Source: Hericium rajendrae
Taxonomy: Eukaryota > Basidiomycota > Agaricomycetes > Russulales > Hericiaceae
Reading direction: 5' to 3'
NCBI GenBank assembly: GCA_033439255.1
Contig: CM065881.1
Coordinates: 806,001 to 870,000 of the forward strand
DNA: 64,000 bases
Part shown: positions 2,020-28,773 of the stretch, piece by piece
How positions within the stretch are numbered: position 1 is the stretch's first letter
Layout of the letters: each line of letters begins with the position of its first letter
The notes under the pieces: generated by a model
Seen by the model: the letters and a program-made list of their open reading frames with translations, nothing else
Database searches by the model: none
Told to the model about the DNA's origin: nothing
Translations under genes and position numbers: made by a program

Positions 2020-5000
2020 TTACAGTAGATCTTCCGGCTCAATATCTAATTCTAATGTGTCTACTGCATCGTCAGCGACACTTTCCCCCGTCCTTTCTGC
2101 AGTGGCTGCGCCTTCTGTGGGAATTGGGCTCGTATCATCAGACATCAATATGTCAAGGCCGGCCGACAAGCTGTTTGGTATGGTAAAATTTGCTTTACGA
2201 CCGCTACCGTTGATTTCGTGAGTCCTTCGCTGTTCAATATGCTTTGCAAGAGCTGACAGTGTCTTCATCATATTGGGATCCACGTGCTTGATTGTCAATG
2301 AAGATAGGCGGAAATTTCTCTCGATATCATTGATACATGTTCGGTACGTTTCGATTATCAGTGACTCTTCCAGGATTCGTGCAACTGTACGGTTGGAGTA
2401 CGATCCACCGTAGATGAACTATGTAATTCGATCAGCATCAACATGTCGGGCGTTCAAGAATTATGATCGTGGTGTGTGCTACCTTCGTGTATAAATTGTT
2501 GAGTTCAACTAACCAGTCTATTGCACGGAATTTGTGTTCCTTGCCGGTAGGATTGCAAAGCCAGTTCATTCGGATAGCATTGCTGTAAGCACGATAAGCT
2601 TTTTTTTTATGAGATAGATTGGTTGACAGCTTACCGCAGTTTCTCATCATATACAAAATGCAGATCATGGAGAAATCGGAGCATATTAGTTGCGTACTTG
2701 TGCTTCCCGGTTGCTCGGAACAGCATACTCCATGGTAGTATGCAGTTCTCTACAGATCCGATGTCTCCACGGTTCAGTGCCCAGGATATCTCCTCATAAA
2801 AGAGGAAGTCCCGGTTTCGTATAATTGCATTCTCAAAGACAATGTCTCACTTCTGTCCACTCTGCTGACGTACGTCGTCCAGAGTACCCCCCGTGACGTA
2901 GTTGTCAGCAATGGTCTCGGACATTGCTACGATATCTTTCCACTTTGGCCGCACCGAGGCATAGTCGTCAAGCGTCTCGACATGTCGCTGTGGATCTTTG
3001 GATACCTCAACTCGCCAACAGTCAAGGCAAAGAACCAGCCCAGTATGGTGTACGACGTCATGCATCCGACGAAAGCCAGGTTTGGTACCCATCTTCCCCA
3101 TTTCCTTGGGCCGGATTATTGACACGTATCTCATTAGGCCATCCACATCGTTTTGCCCTTTCTTAGGCTCCAGATAAATGCGAAACAGAGCGTCCGTGCA
3201 TGCCATCTTCAAATGAAAGAGACCTGGTACGAAGATCAAAAACTGTAGGCGCTGCCACGGTCTCTCCTCTATACTTCGCGACTCCAGAACGCTCCGGATA
3301 CGTTCTCCAGTTGACAAATCTCCATGGAACAAGACAACGTGGTCCGCCAATGCGACCTTTCGTTGTTCGGCCTGCTCAGCAATACCACCCTGCACAAGTA
3401 AAGCCTCGATGACGTCGGCATTCCCTTTCACCGAGGATTCATTGATATCCATTGCGCGGGCAGGAATTTGTTCAGTTTTAATGACAGGTATCTGACATAC
3501 ACTCTCATAGGGTTGTCCAACCATGGATGTGAACCGTCGAAAATACTTCGGACCATGGTGCACCAGATCGTATCGCAGTTTCCATGCTCGAAACTGCTGG
3601 TGTCGGGTGAGTCTCGAAGGCTGTCCTTTGTCTTGATTTATCTGCAGGAGACCTTCGAAGGAATAAGGCAGACGTGATGATGTCGGATGAGGGTTGATCG
3701 GACTCGATGCCCACAAGCTTTTCGCACATTCCAAGTCCTTTGTTGTAACACCATGGTGCAGAGGAATGAGGGTCGCAGACGTGAGGTGTTTCAAGGTCAC
3801 CTCAGCTTTCTCGATGCGCGGAACGGCACTTTTCATGTCGATGTCGAAGTTGTCGTATGCATAAGAGGTAAGCAAGGTCATGCCTATCTTACATATATTC
3901 TCCTGTGCTTTCTCTGATAGGGACTTGACTGCATTGTTGATAGCCGTTGATGAAATCGACATCCCCGCATGTGCGAGAACCTCAATGACTTTTTCAGGTG
4001 CATTGCAAGCGTGCATGAAGATACCGATGACACTTTGAAAAGCATTGCACCGCGCGTTTGTGCTCTGCATGAATATGCTGAGGCATGTCACCTGCTTCTG
4101 CAGGAGTGAAAACATGTGAGTTCCACCATGCCTTCGAGATCAAAAGCTCAACGTACAATTCACAGCAATGTCTCTCGTATTGGCTCGTGTGGGGGTGTTG
4201 CTCCCTCCTCACGGACCATGTCGTCATCGTCATCAGTGTCATTTGGCAATGGTTCCGAGTTGAAGGCAGCCCACATCCCATCGGACCCGTCACTATGGCC
4301 GCCTGCGACGTCTTCTGCCGGAGGTGCACCCGTTGCTTGCTCTACTCCGATGGGATCAAACTCCCTCCACATCTGTTCAGATGACTCACTACTGGAACGG
4401 TGAACGCCTGATTGACCTGGGACAATGGAGATAGGTCTCGCCGCCATGTAGCTCCTCTCCATATTGATTTCCGGTATAGCTGGAGCATCCGTATGTTGCC
4501 CTTCGACCGCAAGATCAAATGCCTCCCAGAGCATCGCAGACCCGTCACTCGCGGTGGCCTCAACATCTTCATCGCTTCCATGACCTTCGTTTTGGCCGTC
4601 TGAGCTCCCATGATCCATGTCGATATCGTTGCATCCACCGCGCAAACGGTATACGTCGTCACAGCTTCGACAGCTGCATGCGGAAATCACTTCGCTGTCA
4701 CGGTCGCTCGCAACGATGCTGCCGCTGTGAATACACCTCCCGCGCCCCCCCGTCCGGCCATCTTGCATGTCTTGTGTGCCTCTTGTGTGAAGTGCGGTGC
4801 CGTCGCTGGTTCCGCTGTCTGTGCGCTGCACACTCCAGGCACGAAATGGAACCCCGTCTCTCACCCTGCTCTCTCCCTCTCCCTCTGCATGCTGCATGCC
4901 TCCCTCAGTCCCATCACGGATGCCTTGCCTGCCGCTCGTATGCAGTGTCTCGCTCTCCCTCACCTCGCCCTCTGAACCTCCCTCAGTCCCACTGTCATGC

Positions 5001-22886: not shown

Positions 22887-25873
22887 CCTTGAGTGGGGTA
22901 CGACGTCTGTAGGAAGTCAAAACAAGAGGTATAACACCGGACTTCAATCTCCAACTACTTTAATAGTCAGCTGATACGCACGAATGGATCCCAGCCAGCT
23001 TGCACTGACACCGAGATGGCGATAGGAGGTCCGATGAGAGGCAAGAATATCGGATGACCATGATGTGGCCGCATGAGCTTCGCTGCAGGGCGTCAAGAGA
23101 ATAGTAGCGAGCAGCGGCGCTTAGGACGGACCTTTTAACATTATCAATGGTGCCAGGAGAAGCAGACAACACCAATGCCGGGTTCGTGGACTACGTCCCT
23201 CAGCTGTGTAAGAAGCTAGTGATCGATTGCACTGAACGTACACCTCATGAACGAAACGAGGCCCGAGGACATAGATCCTGCCAAGTCGAACATTTGAAGA
23301 TAAAGGATATCTCGATACCGCGATAGAATCTCTTGAGTTTCTCCAAGTCTTCGGACCTGAACAAGCGTAGTTCCATCGCGATGCAAGACGTAGCTCGCGG
23401 ATTGTCCTTGTTGTAACGCACGAGGCAAGCCTAATACTGCATGAGGTCGCTTAGCTTGAGAGTCTTGAAGCAGTAAAATTGACTCAACGACTCGCTTCTG
23501 CGTACTCTATCATCTTGACACCCAAACATCACGTCGCTCCGGCGCACATTCGGAACGTCGTGTGTCCCATCCGAGATGGAGGACAGCCAGCGAGGTGGAG
23601 GGCATATTAGAAGCTCACCCCAGGGCGGTGAATAGCTTCCTCGAAAGCGCTTGAAGCGAGTGATCGGCATGTCGATGGCGATAGGGGCTGGTGATCACAA
23701 TCTTGGCGGCTGCATTCGTCACAACTACGTCCCACGAGAAGTTGTCGAAAGCACACCAACGGAATGCTTTGCGAATAGAGATGGTGCTTTGACCGCGAGA
23801 CCTCCCTCACGGGGGCACAGCACTCGTGGCATGCTGAGGGTGCCGTTCATGGGAACGTATGTCACTTGATGCCAACGCCTTCTACGTTGCTTGTCAAGGC
23901 CTCGCTGCTTGTGGCCGGTCGATCAGATGAAAGACGTTTGCGCGGATCATTCGTGGCGAAACCGTGCATTTAAGCCGGTCCAACCCCTTTATCTACGCAA
24001 CGCCGGGAGCCTGGGTAATTTGCTTCCTCCATGAAGACGAGGCCGAGGTGCGGGGCTCAGGTGTGTTCGACCTCTGCAAGAAGAGCGTTGATCTATGGAT
24101 CTCAGAAATGAGAGAACCCAATATGACAGGTAAGGACTCACAGGACACGACAGCCTGTGTCTGCAGAAGCATGTCGGTCTCGTGTGCGTGGGCTTCGTCT
24201 TTCACCCAAAGTGAAGCCAGACTCCCCTGGACGGATATGAACCCCATAAAAGTACCTGTACTCACTAAGAAAGCAAATACTGTGTCGCCGCGGCAAATTG
24301 TGCTGGCACCTATCGATGCAATCGCGAGACACTGGCTCTTCTGTACCAGCTGGATAGATGTCAGTGGGCATGGGCCCACGGGCGGATGGCCGGAATTCAG
24401 TCATTGTCGCATGCCAGCCTATCGATGACCTGGTCAGGCGAAGAGAGAGTCATTAAAGATCTGTGAATGTATTGTAATTATCATGAATTAGATGCGAATA
24501 CGGATAGAGACCTACGAGTAAGAATATCCGGTTATTGGGGCTCTACAGGATGACCTTTGGAAGGGCGCGTGTGACATGGCAGTTTGTCTCGGTCTCCTTC
24601 ATGGTGACGGCAGTCAGGTCTGCGCGAATGATTATGGCACCATGCCAAAATCGATATGATACACATATCCTGTCTCTTCACTGAGTGGTAAGATACGCGT
24701 GTAAGTCCACCGAATTCTTGTATCAATTGAATACGTAGGCAAGCCACAGCGGTATACCAGCCTATCGATGGTCTGATATGAAGACGGATGCATCCAAGAT
24801 CTGCGAAAGAATATCTGCGAAAGAATTCTGCAATATCATGCGTACATGGTAGTTGCCACGGATGGTTATACTTACGTCGACTGTACCTACTAAGCTCTGT
24901 TATTTTGTCAGACACTTTCATGGTAGCACGATGACTTGAATATTGCTTACACTGATGATGCATTGTCTCGAAAGTGGGGATATGGAGTACTGTACATAGG
25001 CCGTGCGTCGATGACGAGCTAGAGGCTCTCAGAGAGCGGTGGGCTGTTGGTGGGAGTTGTCGAGGAGATCGGCATCTGTCGGCATGGGCGCTTGCGGCGA
25101 TCACCGCTGAAGGAAGCGCCCGTCTGTTGGAAGATACCTCTCTCGACGGTCGCTCGGTGACTTCGTCGAGGATTCATGCATGGCCCGAGCTATAATCAGG
25201 CATAAAGTCCATTTCCTGAACCACCTTTGCAGTCTTTGACAAGTCCATGTCACCTGTGCCAGCTGGTACGGGCCGGGGGTACAGATCCCCGAAGTGCTGG
25301 AAGTCGCCGAAACGAACGGTACGTTACAGACATTCTCCATGAGAGTATTTCGCTACTATTGACTTCAAAATTCTGATGAATACATACGTCTGAGCGCTAC
25401 CTTCTACTAGACACCAAGGGAGGTTATTATCGAGCAGGAGGGTTGCGGACTAACGTCGAGGCTGCAACCGTCATGACAGTCACACACAGCTTCAAGATTG
25501 CTAGCAAGAAATTCTCCGTGTCTCCTTCAAGTCTCCTCGACCCCACTTTATTCAGAGGTATCAAGCGCCGGCTGAACGTCGGTCCTGGTTCTCAACATTG
25601 ACGCAACTGGATATCATGGAGAATGTGGTGCAGTTGTGGAAACTTGCGATTCTTCAGGTGAAGCTTTGTACATCGAATAGCATCTGGACGTACTGTGTGG
25701 ACATGCAGGAGATGCGGAGAATTTGCAAGGTTTCAATGCACAGCTTGACACTGTGAAAATGCTCGTTCCTCGACATCAACTAGATCATATGCCCAATGCT
25801 GTCGGACATAACATTCGTCTTCCAATACTCTCCAACCGTCACCTTTTTGCTCGCCTCAGACGACGACAACCAT
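22887..25873. other. Gene-poor stretch, unrecognised short frames
   Basis: About 3 kb with many short, overlapping open frames on both strands and no domain I can name. Some leftward pieces (24379-23993, 25340-25101) have stretches of plausible protein composition and donor-like motifs, so decayed genes are possible, but nothing is supported well enough to call. Confidence 0.4.
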
Positions 25874-26828
25874 CTAACCACCCGTCTTATTCTCCTCTAT
25901 CGTGCGATGCGCCTCGCGAATATCCTCGAGACGAAACACCCCCGCCGGCTTCGCATCGAACACCCCCGTCGCAACGTCCACCGCGATCGCTTGCAACAGC
26001 ACATCCGCGAGCGGGAACTGCGGCGTGCCGAACGCGAAGCTGCCGAAGAAGCTGAAGTGCGCGCCGCTCGCCATCTGGCTCAGCGGGTCGAAGTCTGGCG
26101 GGCGCGTGTGCCTCGCGGGCTTCCTCGGCGGGCTCGCGCCCGCCGCGCCGCGGAATCGCGAGCGAGTCGAGCAGCGCGCTGTTCCCGACGAGGTTGAGCA
26201 CCTTGTCGACCGTCGTGTCCGCGAGGCGCGCCGCCAGGTCCGGGTCCTCCAGCACCGCCCGCGCAGCGCCCTTGTCCAGCAGCTGCGGGAACCCCGTTTC
26301 ACTGCGCGAGGTTGCGATGACGTTCGTGCCGGCGTTCACGGCGAGGTTGAGCGCCGCCTGGCCGAACGCGGACGTCGCGCCGTGGATGAGCAGCGTCTCG
26401 CCGCGCTGCAGCTCGAGATTGCGGAACAGCGCGGTCCACGCCGTCGCGTACGACTCGGGGAGCGCCGCGAGCTCTGCGCACGGCAGGTCCGATGTAATCT
26501 CTGCGACGTTGCGCGCGGGCGCGAGCGTGTACTCCGCGTAGCTCCCGTTGATGGTGCGCCCGAGCCCGCCCATGGGCACTGCGACGGGCATGCCGGGCGC
26601 GAACTCGCCACCAGGGCACACCGCGACGAGCCCGACGCATTCAATGCCGCTGACGAGTGCGGCCTCGGCCCATTCGCCCCTGCGCATGTGCATCTCGGCG
26701 TGGTTGATGCCGAAGGCCTTGATGCGGATGAGGACATGACCTGGGGTGGGGATGTCCTTGATGACGAGCGCGTCGAGGCCGCCGAAGTGGTCGAGGACGA
26801 TGGTTTTCATTGTGGCTGGAATCGACAT
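25874..26828 (-). pseudogene. Zinc-less MDR / quinone-oxidoreductase-like gene, damaged
   Basis: Medium-chain dehydrogenase/reductase of the NADPH:quinone reductase type. From the ATG at 26828 it reads MKTIVLDHFGGLDALVIKD, IKAFGINHAEMHMRRGEW, GIECVGLVAVCPGGEFAPG, SYAEYTLAPARNVAEI, the nucleotide-binding part ETLLIHGATSAFGQAALNLA and VDKVLNLVGNSALLDSLAIP. The next part should be GGRVCLAGFLGGLAP, but that peptide is encoded on the opposite strand at 26097-26141. A 28-bp segment (26107-26134) is inverted between 10-bp inverted repeats. Downstream the family sequence resumes in another frame (PDFDPLSQMASGAHFSFFGS, IREAHRTIEE) and stops at 25874, a few residues early. It is therefore probably non-functional, unless this is an assembly artefact. 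Host enzyme; substrate unknown. Confidence 0.72.
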
Positions 26829-28773
26829 GGTGAAATGTAAATTCTAAAAGTCATTGAGTTCGCTTCGCGTCTTAAAGGGTAGAACGAATTTGCTCACCAG
26901 TTAGAAGGTGTCTTCGTTGCAAGGTGATGTCCTCGTTGTGCGAAATTGACTATGCACGTTTAATTGGTAGTATCTTCAGCTTTATACGATGTTGTCTGGG
27001 CGTCCTATAATATGCGACGTAGTGCGCGTGATAGACTCTCACCCAGATCGAACATATCCGAGCATTGCTTGCGAAGTGTTGCTCTAGGTTTGTAAGTTAT
27101 GACATGCGGGATTAGCAGGCCCGACGATGTATACGCGGCACGGAGGCATTTCGCTTGTTGAGTCATGTACTGGAGTTGTCGTTCAAATCAATTGGAACTT
27201 TACAACTGTAGGTTTGTCGTGCTGCTCCTATATCGAGGGTTCACCGAAGAATTAGCTGCTGTCGGCTCAATGAATCGACAAGTCAATTGTGACAGAGACA
27301 CAGATCGACGTACGTACAGGATTCCATCACCACAATAATATCATCTGTCGGCCGAGGCCTAAGGGAGGGTTCGCCGAAAGATACCTCCAGCGTATGGCTC
27401 GGACTACTGAGATGCACCGTCACAAAGGTTGTGTGGGCTCACCGCAAGGTCGGCCGCACGTTTGTCCAGTCGTCCAGTCGGAGAGCCTTGACAATATAGC
27501 TCTGTTGACGGCGCCGATGTACGTCGATAGTTGTTTTCAGCTGTGATAGGAAAATAGCTGTCTACAAGAACAACGCACTCCCCTATTTAGCAGTTGCATT
27601 CTATCCCTCCCCGGATGCGAAATGCCTCGAATTAATTTACAGATCTATATGAGCCTATCAATCGGCTGTGGGGAAGTTCTATGTATTGGTTTCCCAAAGC
27701 GTCAGCAAAGTTCCGTCCTGCATTCAGAATGGAAGTCAATATAACAACGATGCCTCAATTAGCAGATAAGATGATAGACTAACAAAGCTCGTATTACATG
27801 AATGTTGGGGCAGCAGCAGCAGCGTGCCAGCGCAACTGGGAGATGAAACGTCCAGAGAGCACGGACGAGAGTGAAAGCTTCCGAGTACTGTCGTCAGTGC
27901 TACGATCTTCCATCCCATGCGAAGAATCAGAATTGACACACTGTGGGAGCTCACGCGCTCATGAATCGTCTACGGGATGCCATCGGACCATCCTGTGTAG
28001 AATCCTGTGCGAGGCAGCCAACACGAGGATCCAAATCGGAGGAAGAAGAGGGCGTCCCGAAAAGGCATTCCTTGTATTCGACGGTGGGACCTCTGGCACC
28101 GGTGCTTCCACCGTTTCGTAACATGTCGTTCTGCTCTTATCAGTCTACGAATCATCCCAGAAAAGATCACCACGATGTGGTCAAGCACGGCATTCTACGG
28201 TACGCAACTATAACGACATTCAGAGGACAATAGCGGTTTGTAGGGTCCTACCGACAGGCTGTGGGTGCTGGCTTGACAGCGCCAGCGCCTTGCGGCATGT
28301 GCTCCAGGGATTATAGGGTCGCCGGTCTATTGTTCTTTCGAAGCTCTGCTTCGCCCGCTTTTGTGCGCCGGCTCTTCATAAGGACGTGCTACGCTGTTGG
28401 GAAGACCCAATCTACCAACAGCTACTTTCCGCGTCCCATCCGCCATCATCGTCTCTCTGCCAACCGGTCAATCGCTTCATTGTATCCATAAGTACCTTGC
28501 TATTCCACTGCTAATTGTATCATCTATTCCTTCAAATACCCCCCCGAAAGCATCTACCATCTATTAAACGCGTCGAACTACCATACTCCCTTTTCACGTA
28601 AATCAAAATTTTCAACCCAGCACTAACGTCTTCAGGAACGGTAAGCCCTTGTTTATTTTACAATGGTCTCATCAACTAAGATGAGGTCTTCTAGAATTCT
28701 CACCTAGTTCTCTACGAACTAGACATTCATCTACCAGTCATAGCCAACACCAGAACCGTTTAATCTATATCAA
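26829..28773. other. Intergenic; 5' leader of the next gene at the right end
   Basis: About 1.9 kb with no recognised gene. The last 250 bp are pyrimidine-rich. A GTAAGC donor near 28640 and a TTCTAG acceptor near 28693 could be a 5' UTR intron of the gene starting at 28774. The rest shows only short unrelated frames. Confidence 0.4.

Follow-up and report, generated by a model that had tools for sequence, protein, structure and literature searches.

A hairpin-flanked 28-bp microinversion inside a bacterial-type quinone-oxidoreductase gene of a eukaryote, probably a young pseudogene

The closest described systems include the definite microinversions between human and chimpanzee, 59 in number according to the available text of PMC8755829, which are 17-33 nt long and each of which has inverted repeats of 3-75 nt at its flanks. 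Two mechanisms are put forward in that text, namely template switching for those with long perfect arms, or microhomology-mediated break-induced replication. It counts one of the 59 as exonic and none as lying in coding sequence, and the accessible sections of PMC7954356 report, for great apes, a depletion of coding regions in template-switch events. The locus described here is located in a window of 64 kb (the whole stretch of DNA that was analysed, G000:C4:806001-870000, in a genome of 46.8 Mb and 19 contigs) and carries a microinversion that is real in the available sequence and clearly delimited. This kind of mutation is already known, though rare, and what is unusual here is that coding sequence was hit. 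In one literature library, with limited wording, no report was found of a fungal hairpin micro-inversion or of a microinversion in a fungal genome, nor of an intragenic inverton together with an inverted repeat.

The gene concerned is encoded on the minus strand and, with its 3' part included, extends from 26828 to about 25874. As read now, its frame 0 is an ORF of 313 aa (25887..26828), of which residues 1-231 are homologous and the last 82 are not. Two Pfam domains are recognised in the product, namely ADH_N (E=1.4e-11; 45 bits for a cut-off of 23.5) and ADH_zinc_N (E=5.3e-07; 30.1 bits, just below the cut-off of 31.8), and this combination of ADH_N with a Rossmann (ADH_zinc_N) domain assigns the gene, by profile, to the MDR superfamily as a quinone-oxidoreductase-like member. 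The best solved relative of the first 229 aa is a quinone oxidoreductase (PDB 4dup, E=4.9e-26). The ADH_zinc_N match stops at residue 231, i.e. at position 84 of the 129 positions of the profile, which is the last residue before the inverted core.

The intact 5' part of the gene (229 aa, 26142..26828, minus strand) served as query for the homologue search. In brief, 191 bacterial relatives were fetched and the best 80, with 62-70% identity, were kept (66% median and 70% best identity), none being dropped from the counts below except where stated; as the query lies entirely upstream of the inverted core, the selection was blind to this core. Over these 229 residues, which form one uninterrupted frame, the identity of the gene product to proteins of proteobacteria and acidobacteria reaches 70%. 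Judged by this comparison with bacterial proteins, the eukaryote may have acquired the gene from bacteria by horizontal transfer.

Along the gene strand, the reading is in frame as far as ...AIPRRGGR and then continues with residues absent from all 80 bacterial homologues. At positions 26097-26141, the minus strand reads GGREPAEEAREAHAP in the gene frame and the plus strand reads GGRVCLAGFLGGLAP within a plus-strand ORF; over the inverted stretch, the gene strand gives REPAEEAREAHAP and the opposite strand RVCLAGFLGGLAP. The 28-nt core itself (26107..26134), read with its arms on the plus strand, yields the homologous peptide VCLAGFLGGL. Indeed, (i) the pattern C[LI]AG[FW]LGGL is found at the corresponding place in 80 of the 80 bacterial homologues, (ii) CLAGFLGGL is found exactly in four of the 80, most of them having W where the window has F, (iii) the context before the motif is variable, RGG[RK]xC[LI]AG being present in 57 of the 80, and (iv) PAEEAR, read from the minus strand, is present in none of them. 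The preliminary description had located the missing peptide on the plus strand at these positions and had called the residues of the minus strand unrelated; the former claim is borne out to the base, and the latter agrees with the zero count of PAEEAR. Orthologues with the minus-strand residues had been named there as the observation that would speak against an inversion; this search, run on the bacterial homologues, returned the plus-strand pattern in every case.

Profile scores and DNA identities give the same picture. Against the profile built from the 80 homologues, the ten-residue core scores 29.4 bits from the plus strand and -40.9 in the gene reading. At the DNA level, the mean identity of the core to the homologues is 74.6% when reversed (57-89%) versus 29.5% as it stands (21-39%), which, with the pattern found in all homologues, supports the microinversion between short palindromic arms that had been proposed. 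The core is thus, in place, the reverse complement of the homologous segment, between hairpin arms. Another explanation would be that no inversion took place; the minus-strand residues would then be truly specific to the lineage, and the match on the opposite strand would be due to chance or to the antisense frame, an open frame of 312 aa. However, among all 127,936 ten-residue windows in the six frames of the 64 kb, the runner-up scores 7.3, and the 15-residue block scores 45.1 with the core reversed and -25.2 with the core as it stands, against 3.6 for the best of 20,000 shuffled cores; furthermore, the antisense ORF has one Pfam match only, at E = 0.1 and far below the cut-off. The probability of this explanation is practically nil.

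This antisense ORF (plus strand, 25902-26840), within which the displaced peptide is read, has no family match better than that one. GC-rich genes often have an open antisense frame, and the ORF is probably a by-product of GC-rich codons. No obvious GT...AG pair of an intron excising just the stretch was seen by eye on the sequence. One of the homologues (L076) aligns with 4dup across the stretch hit by the inversion, so that this stretch belongs to the ordinary fold of the family; by its Pfam placement, the inverted stretch would be part of the nucleotide-binding Rossmann domain.

The core is directly adjoined by perfect 10-bp inverted repeats, 28 nt apart, GGCGGGCGCG at 26097..26106 (the 3' arm in the gene sense) and CGCGCCCGCC at 26135..26144 (the 5' arm in the gene sense), exactly as they had first been described. 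Among 4,839 trial inversions of 8-69 nt, 21 tie for the best score, all of them concentric with the axis of the hairpin and 28 to 68 nt long, those longer than 48 nt tying only since their outer bases fall outside the block that was scored. In a second run, which went up to 50 nt, concentric inversions of 20-26 nt lose matching residues and those of 28-50 nt do not, which places the breakpoints in or at the arms. When folded as single-stranded DNA, the 48 nt of arms and core have both arms fully paired, with -18.6 kcal/mol and a z of -3.07 versus shuffles; for the hairpin with seven more bases on each side, the z is -0.93, and 36 of 200 shuffles are at least as stable. The window has six places with perfect arms of 10 bp or longer at a distance of 10-60 nt, one of which is nearly a closed palindrome, compared with 2.6 places on average (range 1-6) in a shuffled control of 10 windows with 300-base blocks, so that the arms alone are weak evidence.

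At the positions of the arms, at most four of ten bases match in 50 of the 80 homologues and the maximum, reached in two of them, is eight of ten. As the protein family does not keep the arms, this points to a chance hairpin rather than a functional one. The arms are perfect now and the homologues, which are distant bacterial ones, match them at no more than eight bases of ten; template switching is described as turning imperfect arms into perfect ones in the available text of PMC8755829 and PMC8794818.

Beside the inversion, a frame offset is located at 26096..26099 (minus strand), in overlap with the outermost bases of the 3' arm. In 80 of the 80 homologues, exactly two residues (6 nt) separate the P or S after the peptide from the next [DNEGH]F, and in the window the distance is 4 nt. 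A single-base frame offset had been noted here beforehand: the offset is real and the change of frame is the same, but the comparison with the homologues shows that two bases net have been lost, which has the same effect on the frame as the gain of one base.

Taken together, the sequence comparisons are best explained by a one-off mutation of replication or repair which probably reversed a 28-bp segment in a bacterial-type MDR/quinone-oxidoreductase gene of a eukaryote, the ancestral order being provided by the bacterial homologues only. The likeliest mechanism would be short-range template switching between the two GC-rich hairpin arms, in which the nascent strand would jump at one arm, copy the other strand across the loop and return at the other arm. 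The two-base loss at the outer edge of the 3' arm is then best taken as the mark of an imperfect, slightly out-of-register return, in the course of which the arms may have become identical up to their outermost bases. This event would replace the conserved ADH_zinc_N stretch G-R-x-C-L-A-G-F-L-G-G and leave the remainder of the protein out of frame, which, with the stop near the C-terminus, would probably make the gene a young pseudogene.

The frame offset may accordingly be part of the same event as the inversion and, provided that the inversion is a true mutation, we lean towards a single event for the inversion and the two-base loss. Under the same proviso, a somewhat smaller but still considerable chance is left to two or more events by another route, in which the inversion would have arisen by microhomology-mediated break-induced replication and the two-base loss and the stop by independent decay, a reading which overlaps with the one-off mutation described above. 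A break-repair route is proposed for the whole human-chimpanzee set in the available text of PMC8755829, according to which most microinversions are pure at birth, and this counts against one event; on the other side, the two-base loss lies just where a jump that returned imperfectly would be expected to leave it, in overlap with the outer end of the arm, which is not decisive.

Downstream of the offset, the 3' part of the gene (25877..26095, minus strand) is conserved in its own frame over 73 aa from DFDPL, its identity to 79 homologues being 60% in the median and 68% at best, and matches Pfam ADH_zinc_N_2 with E=0.00087 and 20.7 bits, under the family cut-off of 27. It is followed by an in-frame TAG stop (25874..25876, minus strand), at which all 79 homologues reaching that point have a lysine (78 of the 80 by pattern, plus L084 by eye; L022 ends earlier, at the edge of its contig). 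The TAG is followed on its 3' side by MVVVV, a relic of the usual C-terminus, and by another stop (25856-25873, minus strand). Several disabling lesions, namely the inversion, the frame offset and the stop, are therefore combined in one gene, which is probably a pseudogene switched off by the inversion, the frame slip and the near-terminal stop, and the enzyme has probably been lost. The extra in-frame stop fits with a gene that selection no longer protects. If real, the pseudogene is probably young, because its 3' part is still homologous, in one frame, over 73 residues. Conserved positions (the same residue in at least 95% of the 79 homologues, four gap columns of the N-terminal extension being omitted) are altered at 6 of 32 sites in the 3' part versus 7 of 105 in the 5' part, a difference that is not significant (Fisher p = 0.077) and could at most be a hint of relaxed constraint.

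The genome was then considered as a whole. A DNA search with the gene gave one match, the gene itself, and a protein search gave three distant matches with 33-35% identity; with up to three mismatches, the core occurs once, in one orientation. A paralogue or second allele in the other orientation was rejected on the basis of this single DNA match and single core occurrence. The assembly thus yielded no second copy, which leaves gene conversion from a nearby one without support. The same two arms, 5-35 nt apart, are found at one other place in the 46.8 Mb (G000:C4:2053833-2053886, i.e. L086:2034-2087), with a spacing of 34 nt, within an ORF that has a DAK2 domain (5.5e-10) and aligns through the hairpin with a dihydroxyacetone kinase (26vk, 3.2e-07), in normal orientation. 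No microinversion was detected in 39 pairs of transposable-element or DUF6589 loci at least 78% identical (89,379 columns, 7,680 differences; one further pair, of overlapping loci, was left out), although the detector recovered 34 of 39 inversions planted as a control. An earlier scan of 115 such pairs also gave none, but its detector caught only 2 of 40 planted inversions and its zero is thus uninformative. The rate of primate microinversions is given in the available text of PMC8755829 as five orders of magnitude below that of substitutions, and such a rate predicts none in the 39 pairs either, so that the null result speaks only against frequent artefacts.

These controls bear on the possibility of an artefact, by which a polymerase fold-back at the GC-rich hairpin in the library, or a wrong consensus, would have reversed the segment while the living genome has the normal order. 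The arms can form a strong hairpin, and the offset and the stop could likewise be errors of the consensus. However, the matched control with the same two arms reads in normal orientation, the 39 similar pairs have no microinversion, and the stop, some 230 bases away, would require a second, unrelated error. The controls speak against a frequent artefact and not against a single one, and an artefact is considered unlikely; most likely, the microinversion is a genuine mutation, in a gene that is decaying.

Some side observations were made on the mobile sequences of this genome. An integrase domain has 150 scored matches out of 302 candidates, which is a lower bound; 27 of these matches have an identical score (41.6 bits, 4.9e-9; e.g. 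C3:3317092-3317388 and C6:104951-105247), and five of the 27 lie within an open frame of 1379 aa. These 27 matches look like a recently active retrotransposon family. DUF6589 has 68 matches in the genome, of which a number contain stops, and one of its genes is encoded in the window (2474-4115, minus strand; L125), where the matched stretch (G000:C4:808619-809620) has two stops; it looks like a mobile or decaying family. As DUF6589 is common in agaricomycetes, the genome is probably that of a fungus of this class.

A reversible switch would also place inverted repeats around an in-place inversion within a coding frame, the segment flipping between the arms in the living population and the assembly having caught the off state. 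For some small inversions of plastids, the available text of PMC6824564 reports five to seven changes of state on a single tree. Nevertheless, a reversal of the segment by itself would not give back the full normal frame, the offset and the terminal stop remaining in place, which makes a working switch unlikely; the same arms are present at one other place only and are not conserved in the family, and site-specific recombination of segments shorter than 33 bp is called physically impossible in the available text of PMC8755829. A switch is thus regarded as very improbable. Just as improbable is that the hairpin is a hot spot which flips repeatedly in the nuclear genome, with strains or nuclei differing, and which would be a nuclear counterpart, in a coding frame, of the flip-flop inversions of plastids.

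Microinversions are rare, and in the present case the event becomes visible through the protein family itself, despite a great evolutionary distance. For discovery at scale, one could look in broken genes, between hairpin arms, for peptides that one strand lacks and the other encodes. For annotators, the locus is a caution that, when a conserved domain contains a short run of odd residues, the cause may be an inversion, and not an intron or divergence.

Bacterial intragenic invertons are reportedly reversible and driven by recombinases, whereas nothing at this locus shows reversibility or the action of a recombinase. They are nonetheless the nearest functional idea, as they share with it an inversion bounded by inverted repeats in a coding frame (Chanin et al. 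2024, as cited in the available text of PMC11868660). The small inversions of Laureae plastids are likewise inversions of a loop bounded by a hairpin, and two of the 11 described in the available text of PMC6824564 are in coding sequence (rpoA and ycf2); they differ in affecting an organelle genome and in having loops of 4-24 bp, and some of them recur and flip back. Short-range template-switch mutations (Walker et al. 2021, PMC7954356; Monttinen and Loytynoja 2022, PMC8794818; both in their available text) include, among the outcomes described, the inversion of a loop between the halves of a stem and arms made perfect by copying, but those studies compare ancestor and descendant on a tree, whereas the ancestral order is provided here only by distant bacterial homologues. 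Compared with the human-chimpanzee set, as presented in the available text of PMC8755829, the present event lies inside a coding frame, in another group of organisms and beside a two-base loss. It resembles that set in being an in-place reverse complement with inverted repeats at its edges, here with 10-bp arms, and its 28 nt between the arms are within the range of 17-33 nt, although the breakpoints may lie in the arms and 28-50 nt fit equally.
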